Below are positions 745 to 53,964 of a DNA stretch of 64,000 bases, one piece after another; within the stretch, counting starts at the first letter, position 1; each line of letters begins with the position of its first letter. Origin of the DNA: Halothermothrix orenii H 168 (GTDB lineage: Bacteria > Bacillota > Halanaerobiia > Halanaerobiales > Halothermotrichaceae); NCBI RefSeq assembly GCF_000020485.1, contig NC_011899.1, forward strand, positions 869,937 through 933,936, read 5' to 3'. A program made the translations under genes and the position numbers. Under the pieces are notes generated by a model. The model saw nothing but the letters and a program-made list of their open reading frames with translations. It searched no databases and had not been told where the DNA came from.

Positions 745-2256
745 ATGAGAGCAGACGTTATTATCATCGGAAGTGGTGTTGTTGGAAGTGCAATTGCCCG
801 GAGACTTGCCAGATATAACCTTGATATTATTCTTCTTGAAAAAGAACATGATGTTGCTATGGGTACAAGTAAAGCTAATTCAGGTATTATACATGCCGGT
901 TATAATGCACCCTATGATAGTCTTAAAGGTAGATTGAATGTCAAATCAAACCCTGAATTTGATAAACTTTGCAGAGATTTAAGGGTTCCCTTTAAACGGA
1001 TTGGTTCCCTGGTAGTTGGCTTTGATGATAAAGACCTGAAAATACTTAAAGAAGAAAAAGAAAATGGAGAGAAGGCCGGAATAAAAGACCTGGAGATAGT
1101 AAAGGGCAAAAGGCTTTTTGAAATTGAACCAAATTTAAATCCAGAAGCCATGTATGCCCTGTATGCTCCGACTGCCGGTATTATTTCTCCACACCAATTT
1201 ACAATTGCCCTTGCTGATAGTGCTGCCCTCAATGGAGTTAAAGTTATGCTTTTGACAGAAGCCCGGAACATAAAAACTGAAAACGGTATGATTACCGGGG
1301 TAGAAACTAACAGAGGTTTTATTGCTGCTAAAGTAGTTATAAACGCTGCTGGTGTATATGCCGGGAATATTGCCAGTTTAGCCGGTGATTCGAGTATTTC
1401 TATAACCCCGAGGAAAGGTGAGTATCACCTTCTCGATAAAGAATGGGGTGATAAAGTCAATCACGTATTGTTCCCTATTCCCAGTACAGTATCAAAAGGA
1501 ATTCTGGTGACACCTACTGTCCACGGTAACCTCTTAATCGGTCCTAATTCTTATAATGTTGAAGACCCTGAAGATGTATCAACTACAACATCTGGACTTG
1601 ACGAGGTTTATAACGGGGCCAGAAGGCTTGTTCCTTCAATAAATCGAAGGGATGTAATTGCTTCTTTTGCTGGATTAAGGGCTGCAGCCTCAGGAGAAGA
1701 TTTTATCATTGGTTCTTCCAGTCACATTAAGGGGCTTATTCATGCTGCTGGTATCCAGTCACCGGGATTAAGCTCAGCTCCAGCAATTGCAGAAAAGGTA
1801 GAGGAAATTTTTAAAGATATAGCTGATGAGTTTTCCCTTGAGATCAGTTATAAGGATGATTTTAAGGAAACTCTTCCGGAATACCCCTGTTTTTCAGAAA
1901 AACTTGAAAAAAGTCATGAACAGGAGTGGAATAATTTGGTTAGGGAAAATCCAGATTTTGGTGAAATAGTTTGCCGATGTGAACGGGTAACAAAGGGTGA
2001 AATAATTGCAGCTATTCACCGTCCGGTACCGGCCTTAAGCCTTGATGCTATTAAACGAAGAACGAGGGCAGGAATGGGAAGATGCCAGGGTGGATTTTGT
2101 GGACACCGGGTTCTGGAAATACTATCAGAAGAGTTAAATATATCTCCCCTGGAGGTAACAAAAAAAGGCGGGGAATCAAAAATATTAATGAGAAAAACAA
2201 AAGATACGGAACATCAATATGAACAAATGGAGGTAGGTGTTGGTGAAAATGTATAA
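745..2256 (+). CDS. glpA: Anaerobic-type glycerol-3-phosphate dehydrogenase, FAD subunit with BFD-like Fe-S tail
   Basis: Oxidises glycerol 3-phosphate to dihydroxyacetone phosphate. Residues 5-24 (VIIIGSGVVGSAIARRLARY) form the FAD dinucleotide fold and the middle is a DAO-type oxidoreductase domain. The C-terminal segment holds a BFD-like [2Fe-2S] cluster motif with Cys410, Cys412, Cys447 and Cys452 (CRC and CQGGFC). Its 503 residues are usual for the Clostridia form. AAAGGAGG lies just upstream of the ATG. The 3' end overlaps the next oxidoreductase, so the two are translationally coupled and probably form one enzyme with the DUF1667 protein. An NAD-linked or quinone-linked acceptor cannot be decided from sequence. 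Confidence 0.9.
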   Translation: MRADVIIIGSGVVGSAIARRLARYNLDIILLEKEHDVAMGTSKANSGIIHAGYNAPYDSLKGRLNVKSNPEFDKLCRDLRVPFKRIGSLVVGFDDKDLKILKEEKENGEKAGIKDLEIVKGKRLFEIEPNLNPEAMYALYAPTAGIISPHQFTIALADSAALNGVKVMLLTEARNIKTENGMITGVETNRGFIAAKVVINAAGVYAGNIASLAGDSSISITPRKGEYHLLDKEWGDKVNHVLFPIPSTVSKGILVTPTVHGNLLIGPNSYNVEDPEDVSTTTSGLDEVYNGARRLVPSINRRDVIASFAGLRAAASGEDFIIGSSSHIKGLIHAAGIQSPGLSSAPAIAEKVEEIFKDIADEFSLEISYKDDFKETLPEYPCFSEKLEKSHEQEWNNLVRENPDFGEIVCRCERVTKGEIIAAIHRPVPALSLDAIKRRTRAGMGRCQGGFCGHRVLEILSEELNISPLEVTKKGGESKILMRKTKDTEHQYEQMEVGVGENV

Positions 2257-3532
2257 CTATGACCTTGTAGTTGTTGGTGGGGGACCGGCTGGACTGGCAG
2301 CAGCCCTGGAGGCATACAAAAATGGTGTAAATAAAGTCTTACTGCTGGAGAGGGATTATTACCTGGGAGGTATACTTCAACAATGTATTCACAATGGATT
2401 TGGCCTTGATTATTTTAAAGAAGAGTTAACAGGTCCAGAATATGCAGAGAGATTTATAGAAAAACTCGGTGATACCAAAATTAAAGTCATGACAGAGACA
2501 ATGGTGGTCCGGGTAACACCTGATAAAAAAATATATGCTCTTAACAAAAAAGAGGGTTTATTTGTTGTCAATGCCAGGGCTATAGTTCTGGCAATGGGAT
2601 GTCGGGAGAGAACCAGAGAAGCAATTAGAATTCCTGGAGATAGGCCAGCAGGAATTTTCACTGCCGGTACAGCCCAGCGTTATATTAATATTGAGGGGTA
2701 TATACCGGGCCGGGAAGTTGTTATTCTTGGTTCAGGGGATATTGGGCTTATTATGGCCCGGAGGTTGACACTGGAAGGGGCCAGGGTCAAAGGTGTTTTT
2801 GAAATAATGCCTTATTCATCAGGACTGGTAAGAAACAAAGTGCAGTGCCTTGATGACTTCAATATACCATTATATTTAAAACATACAGTTATCAGAATTT
2901 ATGGTCGGGATAGAGTAGAAAAAGTTACTGTAGCCAGAGTTGATGAAAAATTCAGGGTTATACCCGGAAGTGAAAAGGATATAAAATGTGACACCTTGCT
3001 TTTATCAGTAGGACTTATCCCTGAAAATGAATTAAGTAAAGAGGCGGGAATCTTACTTGATAATACTACTGGAGGCCCGGTAGTAAACGAAGTAAGGGAA
3101 ACAGATATAGAGGGTATTTTTGCCTGTGGTAATGTTTTGCAGGTTCATGACCTGGTTGATTATGTAACCGAAGAAGGTGAAATTACTGGAAGAGCTGTAT
3201 CCAGTTATCTTAATAAGAAGCGTACTGTCCGTAAGAAACCAATAAAACTAGTTCCGGAAGATAATGTCAGATACATTGTTCCTCACCAGATTGATTATAA
3301 AGATCAAAGTAGAAAAAGAGTTAAACTGTTTATGAGAGTAAAGGAACCGATGGAGAAGGTCAGGGTAAGGTTATTAGACCCCCAGACCGGTAATGAAATT
3401 GTTAGCTATCCTAAACCGATTGTAACTCCAGGAGAAATGGTTACTGTCTATTTACCTGAGGCCCTGATTAAGGAAAATATGGATAAAATAAAAATTTCAA
3501 TTAATAAGGAGGAAGGTGGCGGTCATGACTAG
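2243..3532 (+). CDS. FAD/NAD-dependent pyridine nucleotide-disulfide-type oxidoreductase of the glp operon
   Basis: Probable electron-transfer partner of GlpA, in the place that GlpB holds in enterics. The N-terminal FAD fold is LVVVGGGPAGLAAALEA. A second dinucleotide fold, VVILGSGDIGLIMARRL, sits in the middle and probably binds NAD(P). Near the C-terminal third is the FAD-closing motif GIFACGNVLQVHDLVDYV. No redox CxxC is present, unlike thioredoxin reductase. In-frame starts are GTG 2237, TTG 2240, GTG 2243 and ATG 2249; GGAGG at 2229-2233 is best spaced for GTG 2243. It overlaps glpA by 14 bp and the next gene by 8 bp. The family is known from Clostridia and Thermotogae glp operons. Confidence 0.85.
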   Translation: MKMYNYDLVVVGGGPAGLAAALEAYKNGVNKVLLLERDYYLGGILQQCIHNGFGLDYFKEELTGPEYAERFIEKLGDTKIKVMTETMVVRVTPDKKIYALNKKEGLFVVNARAIVLAMGCRERTREAIRIPGDRPAGIFTAGTAQRYINIEGYIPGREVVILGSGDIGLIMARRLTLEGARVKGVFEIMPYSSGLVRNKVQCLDDFNIPLYLKHTVIRIYGRDRVEKVTVARVDEKFRVIPGSEKDIKCDTLLLSVGLIPENELSKEAGILLDNTTGGPVVNEVRETDIEGIFACGNVLQVHDLVDYVTEEGEITGRAVSSYLNKKRTVRKKPIKLVPEDNVRYIVPHQIDYKDQSRKRVKLFMRVKEPMEKVRVRLLDPQTGNEIVSYPKPIVTPGEMVTVYLPEALIKENMDKIKISINKEEGGGHD

Positions 3533-3920
3533 AAATATAATATGTATAAGATGCCCCAAGGGGTGCCGGATGACTGTTGAGAGTAATGATAAAAAGATTG
3601 GGTCAATTTCAGGTTATGGTTGTCCCAAAGGGCTTGAATATGCAAAAGAAGAGTTTTTAAATCCAACCCGGATTTTGCCGACTACTGTCAGAATTGTTAA
3701 TGGAGAATTACCGCTTGTTCCGGTGAAAACAGCTGATCCAATTCCAAGAGAAATGATCAATGATGCCATGAAAGAGATTAATAAAGTTACAGTAAAAGCT
3801 CCAGTTAAACTGGGTCAGGTAATTATTAAAGATCTTGCCGGGACCGGAGTAAAGCTTGTAGCTACCCGTAGTATTGCCAGAAAGGTGGAAAATGGCCAAA
3901 AAACGGTTGCTACTGCCTAG
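3525..3920 (+). CDS. DUF1667 cysteine-rich protein of the glp operon
   Basis: A 131-residue protein with an N-terminal cysteine motif, CIRCPKGC, followed about 20 residues later by GYGCPKG. That makes four cysteines suited to an Fe-S cluster or metal. The family (DUF1667) occurs almost always with the two oxidoreductases encoded just upstream, so it is probably the small Fe-S subunit of the glycerol-3-phosphate dehydrogenase complex, in place of GlpC. The electron-transfer role is inference. ATG 3525 is preferred to GTG 3516 because GGAGG at 3508-3512 is too close to the latter. It overlaps the preceding stop by 8 bp. The C-terminal half shows no recognised motif. Confidence 0.8.
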   Translation: MTRNIICIRCPKGCRMTVESNDKKIGSISGYGCPKGLEYAKEEFLNPTRILPTTVRIVNGELPLVPVKTADPIPREMINDAMKEINKVTVKAPVKLGQVIIKDLAGTGVKLVATRSIARKVENGQKTVATA

Positions 3921-3935
3921 GAGAGGAAAAAAGAT

Positions 3936-4505
3936 ATGAAACATTTGAAAAAGTATTTCAAAAAACACCCGGTCATTGCCGGTATCAGGGATACCAGTCA
4001 GCTCAATTTTGCTTTATCAAGTGATGTTATAGCCCTTTTTATACTCTGTGGAGATATTTTTATTCTGCCAGAAATTATGGAAAAGGCCAGGGAACGGGAT
4101 AAACTGGTTTTTCTCCACATAGATTTAATCAATGGAATAGGCCGGGATAAAAAAGGCATTAAATATCTTGCTGTTAATAACCTCTGTGATGGAATTGTAA
4201 CCACCAAGAGTAATCTTATAAAGGCGGCCAAAAAAGAGGGTTTAATGGCAATACAACGTCTTTTTTTACTCGATTCAGCTGCCCTGAAGACTGGAGAACA
4301 CCTGCTGGAAATGAATAAACCGGATGCTGTAGAAATACTACCGGGGATTGCTGCCCCATATTTTATTGAACACATTAAGCATCAGCTTCCCTGTCCTATT
4401 ATTGCGGGGGGGTTAATAAGACGAAAAGAAGAAATAGATAATCTTGTCGATAAAGGAGTCCTGGCAGTATCAACAAGTAATAAAAAACTATGGAAGGAAT
4501 ACTAA
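3936..4505 (+). CDS. glpP: Glycerol uptake operon antiterminator
   Basis: RNA-binding antiterminator that, in Bacillus, responds to glycerol 3-phosphate and lets polymerase pass the leader terminator of glp genes. Its 189 residues match the compact TIM-barrel-like GlpP family, with HPVIAGIRD near the start, FLHIDLINGIGRDKKGI in the middle, DAVEILPG, and PIIAGGLI near the end. It is the last gene of the glpA operon, 15 bp after DUF1667, and is followed at once by a terminator. The matching target is the hairpin at 645-720, so the operon probably controls its own elongation. Confidence 0.92.
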   Translation: MKHLKKYFKKHPVIAGIRDTSQLNFALSSDVIALFILCGDIFILPEIMEKARERDKLVFLHIDLINGIGRDKKGIKYLAVNNLCDGIVTTKSNLIKAAKKEGLMAIQRLFLLDSAALKTGEHLLEMNKPDAVEILPGIAAPYFIEHIKHQLPCPIIAGGLIRRKEEIDNLVDKGVLAVSTSNKKLWKEY

Positions 4506-4532
4506 ACGGGGATAAACCCCGTTTTATTTTTT
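4504..4532 (+). terminator. Intrinsic terminator of the glp operon
   Basis: AAACGGGG (4504-4511) and CCCCGTTT (4517-4524) form an 8-bp perfect stem with a 5-nt loop, followed by TATTTTTTG. It overlaps the glpP stop codon. Confidence 0.9.
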
Positions 4533-4538
4533 GTTTTC

Positions 4539-4568
4539 TTGACATAACTAATTTAACATTGTTAAAAT
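4539..4568 (+). promoter_or_regulatory. Predicted promoter of asnS
   Basis: Consensus TTGACA at 4539-4544 and TAAAAT at 4563-4568 with an 18-bp spacer. It lies directly after the glp terminator and leaves a leader of roughly 110 nt before asnS. That is too short for a T-box, and no T-box sequence is visible. Confidence 0.6.
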
Positions 4569-4602
4569 GTTTTATAAAATGATTTGGTTTGGAGAAGGTA
4601 TT

Positions 4603-4622
4603 TATTTCTTTATAAAGAAATA
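4603..4622. repeat. 20-bp perfect palindrome in the asnS leader
   Basis: TATTTCTTTA followed directly by its reverse complement TAAAGAAATA. It lies about 80 bp upstream of the asnS start. It could be an operator or chance in AT-rich DNA; no cognate regulator is visible nearby. Confidence 0.4.
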
Positions 4623-4685
4623 TATAATTTGGATGTACATTTTATTTTATAGGATATACTACATATTGAAGAAAGGGGAGAAGCC

Positions 4686-6077
4686 ATGGATTATTTTGAA
4701 CGTACCAGAATTAAAAACATATTGGAGAAAAATATTGATAACTATAAAGATGTAATTGTACTGGGATGGGTGAGAACCAAGAGAGTTTCTAAAAACATTG
4801 CTTTTCTGGAAATCAATGATGGAAGTACGTTAAAGAACCTGCAAATAGTTATCCTTCAACCAGATAAATTCCCGCTTGACAGTATTAATACCGGAGCCAG
4901 TGTAAAAATTAAAGGTTATCTTGAGGAAGTTAAGGGTAGAGAACAGAGTATTGAAATGAAGGCTGAGGAAATTACATTAATCGGTGAAGCACCTGTTGAT
5001 TATCCCATGCAGAAAAAAAGACATACCTTTGAATTTTTACGGGAAATTGCCCACCTGCGCCCCCGGACCAATACCTTCGGTGTTGTTAATCGTTTCCGCA
5101 GTAAAATGGCATATGCAATCCACAAATTTTTCCAGGATCGTGGCTTTCACTATATCCATTCACCGATAATTACGACCGGTGACGCTGAAGGAGCAGGTGA
5201 GGTTTTTACAGTTACCACCTTTGACCTGCAAAATCCTCCCTTAAGCGAAGGTGGAGAAATTGATTTTAGCCAGGATTTTTTTGGGGAAGAAGCCGGGCTT
5301 ACTGTTAGTGGTCAGCTGGAAGCAGAATTAATGGCAACTGCTCTCGGGGATGTTTATACCTTCGGGCCTACATTCAGGGCAGAGAATTCAAATACTTCCC
5401 GCCATGCCTCAGAATTCTGGATGATTGAGCCTGAAATGGCCTTCTGTGATCTTGAGGAAATGATGGACATTATTGAGGAATTTATTAAGTTTTTATTTAA
5501 ATATGCCCTTGATGAATGTCCTGAGGAGATGGAATTTTTTAATAAATGGATTGACAAAGGTCGAATAGATATTTTAAAAAAAATTATAGACGCTGAATTT
5601 GCCCATATAACTTATACTGAAGCTATAGATATACTGGAAAAATCGGGTGAGGATTTTGAATTTCCGGTAAAATGGGGTATGGATTTACAGTCGGAACACG
5701 AACGGTATTTAACAGAAAAACACTTTAAAAAACCGGTCATGGTGACTGACTACCCCAAGGATATAAAGGCTTTTTACATGAGGGTTAATGATGATGACAA
5801 AACCGTAAGGGCAGTGGACTGTCTGGTACCCCAGGTTGGAGAAATAATCGGTGGTAGTCAGAGGGAAGAACGGTATGATGTCCTGCTCAAGAGGATGAAA
5901 GAACTTGATATGAATATTGAGAAATACCAGTGGTTTCTGGATATTAGAAAGTATGGAACAGTACCCCATTCTGGTTTTGGACTGGGATTTGAGAGGCTAT
6001 TAATGTATATCTCTGGTATGAAGAATATCAGGGATGTTATTCCCTTTCCCAGAACTCCCGGTAATGCCAAATTTTAA
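4686..6077 (+). CDS. asnS: Asparaginyl-tRNA synthetase
   Basis: Charges tRNA-Asn with asparagine. The N-terminal OB-fold anticodon-binding domain (about residues 15-110, [20 protein letters not shown]) is followed by a class II catalytic core. Motif 2 is [15 protein letters not shown] with EPEMAF after it, and motif 3 is [12 protein letters not shown] near the C-terminus. At 463 residues it has the normal length. The motifs separate it from AspRS, which lacks this NTSRH context. GAAAGGGGAG stands before the ATG at 4686. It has its own promoter and terminator, so it is probably monocistronic with some read-through into the next gene. Confidence 0.96.
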
Positions 6078-33538: not shown

Positions 33539-33711
33539 CTATAATTTTTATCCTATATAGCAGGGATATACTAATGAATCTATAATGTATATATATAAAA
33601 TACATAAGAAATTAAACAACATAAAATATATTACACCGAAGCATACATGGGGTTAATTTATTATCATTTGTAAATACACTAAAATTATTTGAAGAGAAAG
33701 GGTCTATAACA

Positions 33712-35043
33712 GTGAGATATAAAGAACAGGTAAAGTCATTAGTTGATATTTTTAAGTCTGGGGAAAAATCTCCTAATAATTTTAAATTAGGTCTTGAGTT
33801 AGAGCATTTTATCCTTAATAAAGACGACCTTACCGCTGTATCCTATTATGAAGATAAAGGGGTAGAGGATATATTAAAAGAGCTGGTCAGGGTAAACTGG
33901 GAACCAGAATATGAGGGAGCTTACCTTATAAAACTTATAAAGGACAAAATGACTATTACTCTGGAACCGGGGGGGCAGCTGGAATTAAGCCTTGCCCCCG
34001 TGAGCACTATTAAAGAAATTGATTTACTTTATCAATCTTTTCTTGATGATATTTTCCCTATTTTACTTAAATGGGATAAAGTTATTGTTAATTTAGGCTA
34101 CCATCCCGAAAGTGGGATTAAGAATATTCCCCTGTTACCAAAAAACCGTTATAAATATATGTATGAGTATTTTAAAAATCGGGGAAGGTATGCCCATAAT
34201 ATGATGAAGGGAACAGCCTCAATCCAGGTAAGTCTGGATTATCAAGATGAGGATGATTATAGAAAGAAAATTATTTCTTCTTATTATTTGTCCCCAATAA
34301 TCTATTGTATTTTTGACAATGGACCCTTTTTTGAAGGGAAATTATGGGATGATCCGGCAAGCATCAGGTCGATAATCTGGGATAACTGTGATAATGACAG
34401 GTGTGGTCTAATAAAAGGTATTTTTAAAGATGAATTTGGATATAAAGACTATGCATCCTATATTTTAAACTGTCCTCCAATAATTATAAAAAAAGATGGT
34501 AATCTTGTTTTTACAGGTGACACCAGCGCCCGGGAACTATTAAGTTCATTTATTTCATCTAAAATTTCTAAAGAAGAATTAATGCATTTATTAACAATGG
34601 TCTTTCCTGACGTGCGCACCAAAAAATATCTCGAAATAAGAATAGGAGATTCTTTACCATACCCGTATTTTTTGGGCTTCGTTGCCCTGTGGAAGGGTTT
34701 ATTATATAATAAAGAAAACCTGGATTATCTTTACAGTAAAGCAGGGCAGGTTGATAAAGGCATCTATTTTGAGTATAAAAACAGGATTCAAAGACATGGC
34801 TATAAAGCTTTCATTGACGGGGAGTCGGTAATCTCCAGGTTCAGGAAACTTAAGGGGATGGCTTCCATTGGTTTAACCTCAAGTGAGAGGAAGTATCTTG
34901 ATTCCCTGGATTATATTATTGAAAATGGACCTACCCCTAAAGAAATTACATATCATAATTTGAAAATAGGTAAAAAAGAAGCTTTACAATGGTGTATGGT
35001 TCCGGGAAAGGATGATTTTGTTGCAAGCACTGGATTTATTTAA
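33712..35043 (+). CDS. Glutamate-cysteine ligase (GCS2 family)
   Basis: Probable ATP-dependent ligase joining glutamate to cysteine or a related amine. FKLGLELEHFILN near residue 25 and TLEPGGQLELSLAPV near residue 85 are the GCS2/EgtA-type active-site strands. GTASIQVSLDYQ and KYLEIRIGDSLPYPYF supply further acid and Arg residues. At 443 residues it is about the plant/EgtA-type length. The start is GTG 33712. Its stop codon overlaps an ATP-grasp ligase gene, so the two are translationally coupled and probably make a gamma-glutamyl thiol or peptide. The second substrate is not certain. Confidence 0.82.
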   Translation: MRYKEQVKSLVDIFKSGEKSPNNFKLGLELEHFILNKDDLTAVSYYEDKGVEDILKELVRVNWEPEYEGAYLIKLIKDKMTITLEPGGQLELSLAPVSTIKEIDLLYQSFLDDIFPILLKWDKVIVNLGYHPESGIKNIPLLPKNRYKYMYEYFKNRGRYAHNMMKGTASIQVSLDYQDEDDYRKKIISSYYLSPIIYCIFDNGPFFEGKLWDDPASIRSIIWDNCDNDRCGLIKGIFKDEFGYKDYASYILNCPPIIIKKDGNLVFTGDTSARELLSSFISSKISKEELMHLLTMVFPDVRTKKYLEIRIGDSLPYPYFLGFVALWKGLLYNKENLDYLYSKAGQVDKGIYFEYKNRIQRHGYKAFIDGESVISRFRKLKGMASIGLTSSERKYLDSLDYIIENGPTPKEITYHNLKIGKKEALQWCMVPGKDDFVASTGFI

Positions 35044-36346
35044 TAAATATAAAAAGATCATAACTTCAAATTCTAAAGAATATTACAGGGACTTCTTAAG
35101 GGCTAAAAAAAAGGTGGAAAAGTCTACTGCATGGTATCATGGTCAACCGGTCGATTTTTTGTACCAGCCAATGTTTTTAACAGAAGATGATGTATCAAGA
35201 CTTAATTATTTGACATCAACATTAACCCGTATTTTAAACAAAGTCATTTTTCATTATAAAAATGATCCTGTATTCAGAAAACAATTTGGATTTCCACCCC
35301 TTATGGAAGAAATGATAATGATCGATCCGGGGTATAAAATTCCCTTTCCAGTAGCCAGGTTTGACATTTTTTACAGGTACGATGGAGGTCACAGTAAATT
35401 TTGCGAATTAAATGCAGATGGTTCATCTGCCATGAATGAGGCACAGGTTATACAAAAAATTATAAAAGAATCCCGGGGTTTTTCTTATTTTAAAAAAAGT
35501 TATGAAATTGAGGACTACGAACTTTTTTATTCATTAATAGATTCTATCCTCGATAATTTTAAAGAATATTGTAAGGATACTAATAAACACCCCAATGTAG
35601 CTATCGTTGACTTCGAGGGAGAAGGAACCATAAATGAATTTCTGGAATTTAAAAAAAGATTTATAAAACTGGGTTATAAAACCATAATATGTGATCCCCG
35701 TCAGTTAGAATACAGGGATGGAGCCCTTTATTTTGGAAATTTCAAAGTAGACCTTATTTATAGACGGGCTACCACCGGGCGACTTATTGAAGAAGCAGAT
35801 GATATTCAACCCCTTTTACAGGCTTATCGTGATAGAAATGTGTGTATAGTTGGTGGACTTGTCTCTCAGGTAATACATAATAAGGTTATTTTTTCTATTT
35901 TACATAATAAATCTTTAGTTGATTTTTTGAAAGATGATGAGCTAAACTTTATACAAAAACACATTCCCTTTACCAGGAAAGTTAATAAACAAGATAACAA
36001 ACTGGTGAAGGAAATAATAAATAACAGGGATAAATATGTTTTAAAACCCTTTGATCTCGCTGCTTCCAGAGGTGTCTATGTTGGAAGGGATTTTTCAAGG
36101 GAAGAATGGGAAGAATTAGTTAATAATATAGAGGATGATTATCTGGTTCAGGAATTTATTGATATTCCCAGAATTGAGATGTTAACTATAGATAAGGATA
36201 ATATATATTTTGAGAATTATGGATACCTGATTGGCTGTTTTTTATATAACCAGAATTTGAGTGGTTTTTATACGAGAGCCGGTCGTAAAAATATTATTGG
36301 TTCTATTGTTGAGTCCTTTACAGTTCCCAATTTTGTTGTGAGATAA
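35021..36346 (+). CDS. ATP-grasp ligase, glutathionylspermidine synthase-like
   Basis: A roughly 441-residue ligase of the ATP-grasp fold. FCELNADGSSAMNEAQVI in the middle, ANVAIVDFEGEG-like strands (here HPNVAIVDFEGEG), DLIYRRATTGRL, KYVLKPFDLAASRGVYVG (ATP lysine region) and DYLVQEFID can be seen. The order resembles the glutathionylspermidine synthetase C-domain rather than GshB. It overlaps the upstream ligase: AAAGGA at 35007-35012 suits TTG 35021 (or 35018) better than ATG 35012. The substrate is inferred to be the gamma-glutamyl product of its neighbour plus an amine or amino acid. Confidence 0.7.
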   Translation: MQALDLFNKYKKIITSNSKEYYRDFLRAKKKVEKSTAWYHGQPVDFLYQPMFLTEDDVSRLNYLTSTLTRILNKVIFHYKNDPVFRKQFGFPPLMEEMIMIDPGYKIPFPVARFDIFYRYDGGHSKFCELNADGSSAMNEAQVIQKIIKESRGFSYFKKSYEIEDYELFYSLIDSILDNFKEYCKDTNKHPNVAIVDFEGEGTINEFLEFKKRFIKLGYKTIICDPRQLEYRDGALYFGNFKVDLIYRRATTGRLIEEADDIQPLLQAYRDRNVCIVGGLVSQVIHNKVIFSILHNKSLVDFLKDDELNFIQKHIPFTRKVNKQDNKLVKEIINNRDKYVLKPFDLAASRGVYVGRDFSREEWEELVNNIEDDYLVQEFIDIPRIEMLTIDKDNIYFENYGYLIGCFLYNQNLSGFYTRAGRKNIIGSIVESFTVPNFVVR

Positions 36347-36386: not shown

Positions 36387-36674
36387 ATGAACCAAACTAA
36401 ACCTGTTAAAAAACATGTATATATATCTGGAAGAGTTCAGGGTGTTGGTTTTCGTTCTTTTTTAAAAAGTAACGCTGCCAGAATCGGCATTAATGGGTGG
36501 GTAAAAAACCTACCGGACGGACGGGTTGAAGCAGTTTTTGCAGGTGAAAAAGAAAAAGTAGCCCGTATTTTACAACTTGCTAAAGAAGGACCTGCCTGGG
36601 CCAGGGTTGATAATATTGAAGAAGAGGACCAGCCATATAAGAATGATTATAACGGCTTTAAAATTAAATTTTAA
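36387..36674 (+). CDS. acyP: Acylphosphatase
   Basis: Hydrolyses acyl phosphates such as acetyl or carbamoyl phosphate. A 95-residue protein with the family signature VYISGRVQGVGFRSFLKSNA (the Arg that binds phosphate) and GWVKNLPDGRVEAVFAG (the Asn for catalysis). AAGGGGG stands before ATG. It follows the ligase gene by 40 bp and could share its transcript. The following 95 bp to the transposon boundary contain no gene. Confidence 0.95.
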   Translation: MNQTKPVKKHVYISGRVQGVGFRSFLKSNAARIGINGWVKNLPDGRVEAVFAGEKEKVARILQLAKEGPAWARVDNIEEEDQPYKNDYNGFKIKF

Positions 36675-52428: not shown

Positions 52429-53964
52429 GTACGTGTCAAGAAAAGGTAGGAAGGATATTTCACCTCAAACAACCCATAAATATTTATTCTAAATAGTTGC
52501 CAGTCCTCTTATTGCTTTTACCCAATCTTTACCGCTATCTGGACCATTTATTGCAGGTATTTTTGCCTGTAACCACTTACTCCAATCCCTGTCCGCTTTC
52601 TTAAACATATATTTTATTTTCCTTACCGGGTTTTTTATTGTGTAATACTGATCTCCAAGTCTTTCTTTTAATTCCTTGTTATGTTTTAACATTAAAATTC
52701 TAGCCATTGCCTCAGCACCTTTTTTGCTCCAACTCATTCCCTGGTTTTTCATCCTGCGAGCCACATTCTTATCCACATAGCCCTCAGCTGCCCCCATCCC
52801 ATGTAATTCTTCATCCCTTAATTCTGTTGGTATCCGATATCTGTAATCTAATAAGTGCTCTTCATACTTTTGGAAATGCTTTATTATTTTCCTCCTCTTT
52901 TCTCGGTTTTCAGCTGTTTCTCCCATACATATTAACGATTCCAATGTGTCCAGAAATACCTGCTTTCTTCCTTCTGCTAATACCCTGCATAAATCATCTG
53001 CAACTTCTCGTCCAAAGTATAATCCTACATCTCTTTTTATATGATACCTATCCAGTTGTACTATTATATTTTCAAAGTATTCCTTACTGGTCTTTTGTAT
53101 CCAGCTGGCACCGTCCCCGTTTAATACTACTAAAGTGTTTTCAAGATTATATTTTTTGCTTATTTGATGGATTAATTCTTCATAAAAGTCATCTGCTTTT
53201 TCATAGACTCCTGCTACTATTTGTGGCTCCTTCAATCTCTTCCGTTTTTTTGCTGGACTAGTATATTCCCAGCCCTCATGGATTAATCCCAGTTTGATTT
53301 CCAGCTTCTTTCCTCCTTCTTCCTGACTACTAACCATTATCCCGTCAGCTTCAATGAACAGTAATGGTATTTCTTTTTCCTCTCCTTTTAAAATCTTACC
53401 TCCTGTGAATACTTCCTCTTTTTCATGTTTGAGTCTCTCTGACTCCCTTTTTCCAAAATCCCTGACTTCATTAAAGATGCTTGTATGGCTTAAATGGGGA
53501 AAACCGGCTTCAGCCAGTACTTCCTCCACTTGCCTGTAGCTCATCTTACTTGCCAGTATTACCAGCAGTTTTAGGTATTCTCCACTTACTCTTTTTTTCT
53601 TTTTTAACCCCAGTTTTTTGTCCAGTAAAATGACGCTTTTTCCTGTTTTTTGGTCTTTATATAGTCGCCTTCTAAGCTTGATGTTTCCAACTTTAGTCGA
53701 TATCGTTCTTTCTAAAAATCTTACTACTTCTAAATTTTTATCTTTATTTTTAAATAGCTCTTCTTCAAGCTTTTCTATTGCCTTCTCCATTATCTGCCTT
53801 GCAAGTTCCAGTGCTGCCTTCTCCAAGGTATTGATATCTGTTATGTTTTGTAGTAAAATATTTACCATAGAGACCTCAACTCCTTTGGTCGGGTTTGTTT
53901 GAGGTCTCTATTTCTTTATCTATACCTTGTTTTCCTTCTTTTCCTACTTAAATTTTACACGTTC
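52429..53964 (-). mobile_element. ISLre2-family insertion sequence, copy C (nested)
   Basis: A 1536-bp element in reverse orientation, nearly identical to copy A, inserted in the transposase gene of element B. It is flanked by the perfect 9-bp duplication AAGAAACTG, so it arrived by ordinary transposition after element B was in place. Confidence 0.93.
52489..53868 (-). CDS. ISLre2-family transposase, copy C
   Basis: An intact 459-residue transposase, differing from copy A at about ten residues (KAIEK for KVIEK, MVSSQ for MVGSQ, YEKADD for YGKADD, GMSWSKKG for GMNWSKKG). The same candidate acids lie in LLFIEADGIMV and VVLNGDGASWIQKT. The hairpin around its ribosome-binding site is the copy A one in reverse. 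A long plus-strand open frame opposite its middle (52707-53261) is a shadow of this gene. Confidence 0.93.
   Translation of the reverse strand: MVNILLQNITDINTLEKAALELARQIMEKAIEKLEEELFKNKDKNLEVVRFLERTISTKVGNIKLRRRLYKDQKTGKSVILLDKKLGLKKKKRVSGEYLKLLVILASKMSYRQVEEVLAEAGFPHLSHTSIFNEVRDFGKRESERLKHEKEEVFTGGKILKGEEKEIPLLFIEADGIMVSSQEEGGKKLEIKLGLIHEGWEYTSPAKKRKRLKEPQIVAGVYEKADDFYEELIHQISKKYNLENTLVVLNGDGASWIQKTSKEYFENIIVQLDRYHIKRDVGLYFGREVADDLCRVLAEGRKQVFLDTLESLICMGETAENREKRRKIIKHFQKYEEHLLDYRYRIPTELRDEELHGMGAAEGYVDKNVARRMKNQGMSWSKKGAEAMARILMLKHNKELKERLGDQYYTIKNPVRKIKYMFKKADRDWSKWLQAKIPAINGPDSGKDWVKAIRGLATI

Follow-up and report, generated by a model that had tools for sequence, protein, structure and literature searches.

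Two overlapping genes of Halothermothrix orenii H 168, located in a 64,000-nucleotide stretch of its genome (the window, to which all H. orenii coordinates refer), encode a GCS2-family homolog of plant-type glutamate-cysteine ligase (GCL) and a circularly permuted ATP-grasp ligase, and they probably form a two-step ligase module with which this salt-loving, obligate anaerobe synthesizes glutathione, the second enzyme not being orthologous to bacterial GshB. The module is real, widespread and coupled, and its families, folds, conserved catalytic residues, tight partnership and fusions are documented below. In the predicted order of steps, the GCS2 enzyme would use ATP to link glutamate, through its gamma-carboxylate, with the cysteine amine, yielding gamma-Glu-Cys, whereupon the ATP-grasp enzyme would phosphorylate the cysteinyl carboxylate of this dipeptide and transfer it to a third residue, presumably glycine, yielding glutathione.

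The locus and its first enzyme

The H. orenii genome, a single contig of 2,578,146 bases, contains exactly one GCS2 gene, which overlaps the gene of the ATP-grasp enzyme by 32 nt, counted from the annotated ATG (Table 1); a GCS2-type ligase overlapping an ATP-grasp enzyme is what the original prediction had described here. Judged by eye, the Shine-Dalgarno-like GGGAAAGGA makes TTG 35018 or 35021 a likelier start for the second gene than ATG 35012, and it also suggests translational coupling of the two genes; whichever of these starts applies, it falls within the GCL gene.

Table 1. Features of the ligase locus in the window
Feature	Position	Strand	Remarks
Shine-Dalgarno-like GAGAAAGGG	33694..33702	+	5' of the GCL GTG start; sequence reading
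GCS2-family plant-type GCL gene	33712..35043	+	443 aa; GTG start at 33712; ORF and family match
Shine-Dalgarno-like GGGAAAGGA	35004..35012	+	within the GCL gene, at its 3' end; sequence reading
Circularly permuted ATP-grasp ligase gene	35012..36346	+	444 aa; ORF and fold model
Acylphosphatase gene	36387..36674	+	PF00708, 1.3e-27; 40 nt 3' of the ATP-grasp gene

The acylphosphatase gene is probably co-transcribed with the ligase pair and recurs as a neighbor in part of the order Halanaerobiales (loci L037, L038, L048, L052, L054, L103 and L105); no role in the pathway is claimed for it. Just 3' of it lies a UPF0236-family gene (PF06782, 36866-38245), possibly a transposase, and an ORF of equal length (459 aa) on the opposite strand, at 52489-53868, may be a second UPF0236 copy.

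The first protein matches PF04107 (GCS2) with 104 bits (1.2e-29), well above the gathering cut-off of 21, and NCBIfam TIGR01436 with 252 bits against a cut-off of 463, so that it is regarded as a relative of plant-type GCL rather than as a formal equivalog. Comparison with PDB sequences aligned its residues 9-412 with the plant GCL structures 9ufc, 6gmo and 2gwc (1.5e-50 to 9e-49). The Foldseek search with the AlphaFold2 model (pLDDT 93.1) gave a TM-score of 0.89-0.90 to plant GCL (2gwc), which is closer than YbdK (0.61) and E. coli GshA (about 0.5). The protein is thus a predicted GCL, expected from its family and modeled fold to convert glutamate, cysteine and ATP into gamma-Glu-Cys.

Family, fold and active site of the second enzyme

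The ATP-grasp protein narrowly passes the cut-off of PF03738 (GSP_synth; 35.2 bits, cut-off 29.3), and PF14403 (CP_ATPgrasp_2) scores as high and passes as narrowly (36.5 bits, cut-off 32). It yielded zero matches to NCBIfam models, and some of its relatives score still lower against Pfam; thus, judging from these profile comparisons, it represents a family for which neither Pfam nor NCBIfam has a dedicated model. The sequence alone gave no convincing match among PDB sequences, and no glutathione synthetase (GS) chain was retrieved from the PDB either by phmmer with the single protein (E<=1) or with the family profile (E<=10), whose best match was Cp1B (9cjn, 1.3e-6).

The AlphaFold2 model (pLDDT 91.7) was placed by Foldseek nearest to human GS (8fbz, 2.5e-17), soybean homoglutathione synthetase (3kal) and glutathionylspermidine synthetase, GspS (2io8), with further matches to yeast GS (1m0w), YgiC, YjfC, trypanothione synthetase (TryS) and Cp1B. 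GS of the eukaryotic type and homoglutathione synthetase are the closest structures and GspS follows closely, but all these E-values lie within a few orders of magnitude, and so the fold alone cannot tell GS from GspS. Remote homology to GspS, YgiC and YjfC was detected also at the profile level (hhalign 95%, E 3e-8). The ligase is a circularly permuted member of the GS/GspS/YgiC/Cp1B superfamily and forms a separate bacterial family. The original view that the enzyme resembles GspS more than GshB is refined here: the protein is related to GspS, has no match to PF02955 (the GshB ATP domain) and resembles in its fold the GS of animals and plants rather than the usual bacterial enzyme, but the closest structures belong to GS and homoglutathione synthetase and the Tyr-x-Arg element is GS-like.

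Across 112 relatives, residues R116, D118, E132, N134, D136, S139, Y250, R251 and R252 are invariant and K291, K345 and R422 nearly so. The paper on the T. brucei GS structure lists the contacts of glutathione, Mg and ATP with their human and yeast equivalents (PMC2845819). Alignment of motifs equates R116, S139, R252 (with the orienting Y250) and R422 with human GS R125, S151, R267 (of the Y-x-R element) and R450, and D118, E132, K291 and K345 with human D127, E144, K305 and K364; the mapping covers 8 of 12 contact positions, each at least 99% conserved in the 112 relatives, and it is based on motifs, not on superposition, the profile alignment being loose around the YRR loop. An invariant glycine (Gly137) takes the place of human S149, conservation does not extend to Y270, and the motif alignment yields no counterpart of E214/N216. 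For the positions of human D127 and E144, the trypanosome paper gives the yeast and trypanosome numbers.

At the position of YRR, E. coli GspS, YgiC and YjfC exhibit K-x4-E (WKTWAWE, FKLYPWE and FKLYPLE, respectively). In GS, the Tyr-x-Arg element forms a salt bridge with the gamma-glutamyl carboxylate (PMC2845819). The motif comparison thus suggests that this family has retained a pocket of the GS type, which takes up a dipeptide donor by its gamma-glutamyl carboxylate, and it favors gamma-Glu-Cys bound in the GS register over the glutathione donor of GspS. YRR occurs also in 3n6x, a protein of the CP_ATPgrasp_1 type whose function is not known, and hence is not unique to GS. The R-x-D, E-x-N-x-D, K and R anchors are common to the family and to GspS, YgiC and YjfC, and the R-D-E-N set corresponds to R139/D141/E163/N165 of Cp1B, found necessary by mutagenesis (PMC12568646). 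As GspS has R422 and K291 as well, these residues do not separate glycine from an amine acceptor; the acceptor cannot be read from the sequence.

The polyamine side of this superfamily was considered in the original prediction, according to which the pair could also make a glutathione-polyamine conjugate; the ATP-grasp enzyme would then be a GspS-type synthetase that uses a polyamine. The PF03738 and hhalign matches and the conserved GspS motif E-x-N-x-D-x2-S agree with such a role, which is nevertheless very unlikely: GspS takes glutathione as its donor, and as PF02955 has no match in the H. orenii genome there is no other visible glutathione source to feed it; neither spermidine synthase (PF01564) nor, above the cut-off, carboxynorspermidine decarboxylase (nspC) was recognized in the genome; the protein carries no amidase domain; and the GS-type Y-x-R stands in place of K-x4-E. 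Spermidine uptake or other routes might still supply a polyamine. Of the other products envisaged originally, glutathione is the more probable and an as yet unrecognized gamma-glutamyl compound the less probable one. As to family assignments, membership in GspS was rejected on the YRR motif and the evidence on polyamine synthesis, canonical GshB on the lack of PF02955 in the protein and the genome, and GshF on the lack of a GshF model match for either protein, as well as for the fusions described below, and on the separation of the genes in the window.

Partnership, distribution and genomic neighborhood

A survey of genomic neighbors, suggested together with the original prediction, confirmed the coupling of the two ligases. 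The two genes lie on the same strand within 400 nt in 105 of 144 loci (partly picked via one of the two genes, and including duplicates), within 50 nt in 103 and overlapping in 62, an arrangement that is not due to chance. Among 101 related genomes, the ATP-grasp ligase is present in 31 and GCL in 41; both occur in 30, GCL only in 11, the ATP-grasp ligase only in 1 and neither in 59 (Fisher p 2e-15, uncorrected for phylogeny). The single genome in which no GCL accompanies the ATP-grasp gene (G001:C159, L047) is a draft 95% complete, and an assembly gap may be responsible. GCL was found in all 14 genomes that were searched again, most of them chosen because the ATP-grasp gene stands alone in its locus. 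Pairwise distances among the GCL proteins correlate with those among their ATP-grasp partners at r 0.87 over 97 loci (maximum of 0.16 in 500 permutations), which is supportive but not independent evidence, as both proteins also track species history. In addition, the two ligases are fused in single ORFs of 869 aa in a Haloplasmataceae metagenome-assembled genome (MAG; L111) and of 864 aa in a member of Clostridia (L154); these fusions are independent, as they come from distant clades and have different nearest relatives.

A pattern scan of species genomes revealed 428 candidate stretches with relatives of the ATP-grasp ligase, some of them in MAGs that may be mis-binned; the best 80 of the 428 represent Halanaerobiia, Tissierellia, Alkaliphilus, Natronincola, Anaerovirgula, Desulforamulus, Cloacimonadota and others. 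The ligase recurs also in Desulfotomaculum, and it mostly adjoins GCL, usually overlapping it or lying within 50 nt. Among 391 evenly drawn clostridial genomes, the pair or a fusion is present in at least 25. With these counts and the 31 of 101 related genomes that have the ligase, the pair is not isolated among Clostridia-like anaerobes, in which the original prediction called such thiols not routine. Genomes of family f3 (the Halanaerobium group, a name inferred from synteny and number) have a conserved GCL and no ATP-grasp ligase, and a profile search found no diverged version of the latter in Halanaerobium; several Clostridia likewise possess GCL only. A lineage with the same GCL beside a canonical GshB would represent gene displacement and fix the product; none was recognized by eye in about 40 clostridial GCL regions, whose neighbors were partly scanned with Pfam. 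Some GCL matches (in G010, G035, G015, G428, G464 and G265) were reported with one in-frame stop codon; in some cases this may be just the gene's own stop, reached where the alignment ends, and in others it may indicate pseudogenes or sequence errors.

Cp1B and comparable biosynthetic ligases belong to this superfamily, and one could imagine the pair as tailoring a natural product or peptide, with no role in making a thiol cofactor. This is extremely improbable, for the genes around the pair are mostly housekeeping ones and not biosynthetic clusters, and the pair is mostly single-copy and co-varies across orders.

In several lineages glyoxalase genes are part of the neighborhood. Of the 13 genomes of families f8 and f11 that bear the pair, 10 have a glyoxalase I gene (GloA) at most 2.4 kb from it, and two genomes of the Desulforamulus/Desulfotomaculum type (L121, L126) have one beside it; all 3 neighbors tested against the lactoylglutathione lyase model NF050074 score above its cut-off. 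A GloB-like gene (hydroxyacylglutathione-hydrolase-like, glyoxalase II) was found at L042, L099, L108 and L117, and an incomplete one at L041, these genes scoring under the cut-off of the hydroxyacylglutathione hydrolase model. This neighborhood supports the use of the thiol product as a glyoxalase cofactor; as thiols other than glutathione serve glyoxalases elsewhere, it does not prove glycine. Stand-alone ATP-grasp genes of Tissierellia (L074, L084 and L096) lie near CcdA-like and ResA/TlpA-like thiol-redox genes.

There is some chance that the pair makes a different gamma-Glu-Cys-X thiol, with beta-alanine, serine, alanine, another amino acid or an amine as X. The ATP-grasp ligase is as close to homoglutathione synthetase, to Cp1B with its varied amino acids and to YgiC as it is to GS, three GS contact positions differ in its family, and the H. 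orenii genome contains neither a close GloA ortholog nor gamma-glutamyltranspeptidase (GGT), the latter being uninformative as a glutathione marker. However, the glyoxalase I and II-like neighbors match models of the lactoylglutathione type, and glycine is the simplest acceptor. In a bolder and slightly more doubtful version, many anaerobic Bacillota and other anaerobes would rely on such an undescribed gamma-Glu-Cys-X, with X other than glycine, as the cofactor of their glyoxalases and their principal low-molecular-weight thiol.

The presence of glyoxalase tracks GCL (p 1e-4) better than the ATP-grasp ligase (p 0.13, not significant), and co-occurrence with GloA was accordingly discarded as a test of the latter. 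Genomes of the Halanaerobium group with GCL alone still have GloA, and gamma-Glu-Cys alone may serve the glyoxalase there, which would resemble the situation in haloarchaea, where gamma-Glu-Cys is used as a thiol (PMC7278568). Could gamma-Glu-Cys itself then be the thiol throughout, with the ATP-grasp enzyme separately modifying it or another molecule? The GCL-only Halanaerobium group and Clostridia are in line with this, but we consider it unlikely, as the ATP-grasp gene is hardly ever present without GCL, overlaps the GCL gene, varies in step with it and has been fused to it. Glutathione, made by the two enzymes in succession, remains the preferred product.

Significance and comparison with known systems

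No published description of the pair was found in the open literature searched, although an earlier one may exist, and the H. orenii genome paper does not mention glutathione. Published surveys use the E. coli or Synechocystis genes to identify orthologs of gshA and gshB, and in one such survey gshA-B turned up only in Cyanobacteria, Proteobacteria, Eukarya and a single actinobacterium (PMC6282198). Should glutathione be the product of the module, many strict anaerobes have been counted as lacking it on account of a second enzyme from a different family; the lactoylglutathione-type glyoxalases of such anaerobes would be explained, and the second step of the synthesis would prove to have been solved in evolution in one more way. 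If the product is not glutathione, it would be a new cellular thiol.

Other gamma-glutamyl ligases were encountered as well. In Clostridia, diverged GCS2 genes with no ATP-grasp partner (L158 3184-3957, L159 4238-4996, L160 6303-7067 and L161 6217-6990) are followed by an overlapping gene of a class-II glutamine amidotransferase-like protein (PF13230) that bears a distant similarity to EgtC, a gamma-glutamyl hydrolase; this suggests a different gamma-glutamyl pathway, perhaps one in which the glutamyl group is removed. At L164 an 887-aa ORF (1775-4438) apparently comprises two ligase domains in tandem: a match to the GshA part of GshF (NF002688, 273 bits) lies in its C-terminal half and a weak one to plant GCL in its N-terminal half, and an EgtC-like amidotransferase gene of the same kind adjoins it (4441-5325).

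Among the known systems, plant-type GCL (2gwc, 6gmo, 9ufc; TIGR01436) shares with the first enzyme the fold, a near-full-length alignment and the GCS2 motifs, the identity being about 28% and the score lying under the TIGR01436 cut-off. The second enzyme has the circularly permuted ATP-grasp fold of the eukaryotic-type GS and homoglutathione synthetases (2hgs/8fbz, 1m0w, 3kal and the trypanosomal 2wyo) and, by motif, their R125, S151, Y-x-R267, R450 and Mg and ATP ligands, but it is bacterial, only 11-16% identical to them, carries Gly for S149 and does not keep Y270. Cp1B (9cjn), an ATP-grasp enzyme of the fungal E-64 pathway whose substrates are trans-epoxysuccinate and hydrophobic amino acids (PMC12568646), exhibits the same catalytic R/D/E/N set but, unlike the H. 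orenii ligase, has no GCL partner. The peptide-spermidine ligases GspS, YgiC and YjfC are remote homologs with the R-x-D and E-x-N-x-D motifs in common, from which the H. orenii ligase differs by the lack of an amidase domain, by YRR instead of K-x4-E, by its GCL partner and by a genome in which polyamine synthesis was not found. Finally, the bifunctional GshA-GshB enzyme GshF, whose halves we take to belong to families other than GCS2 and circularly permuted ATP-grasp, as the absence of GshF model matches supports, couples a GCL with an ATP-grasp ligase by the same logic as this pair and its fusions.
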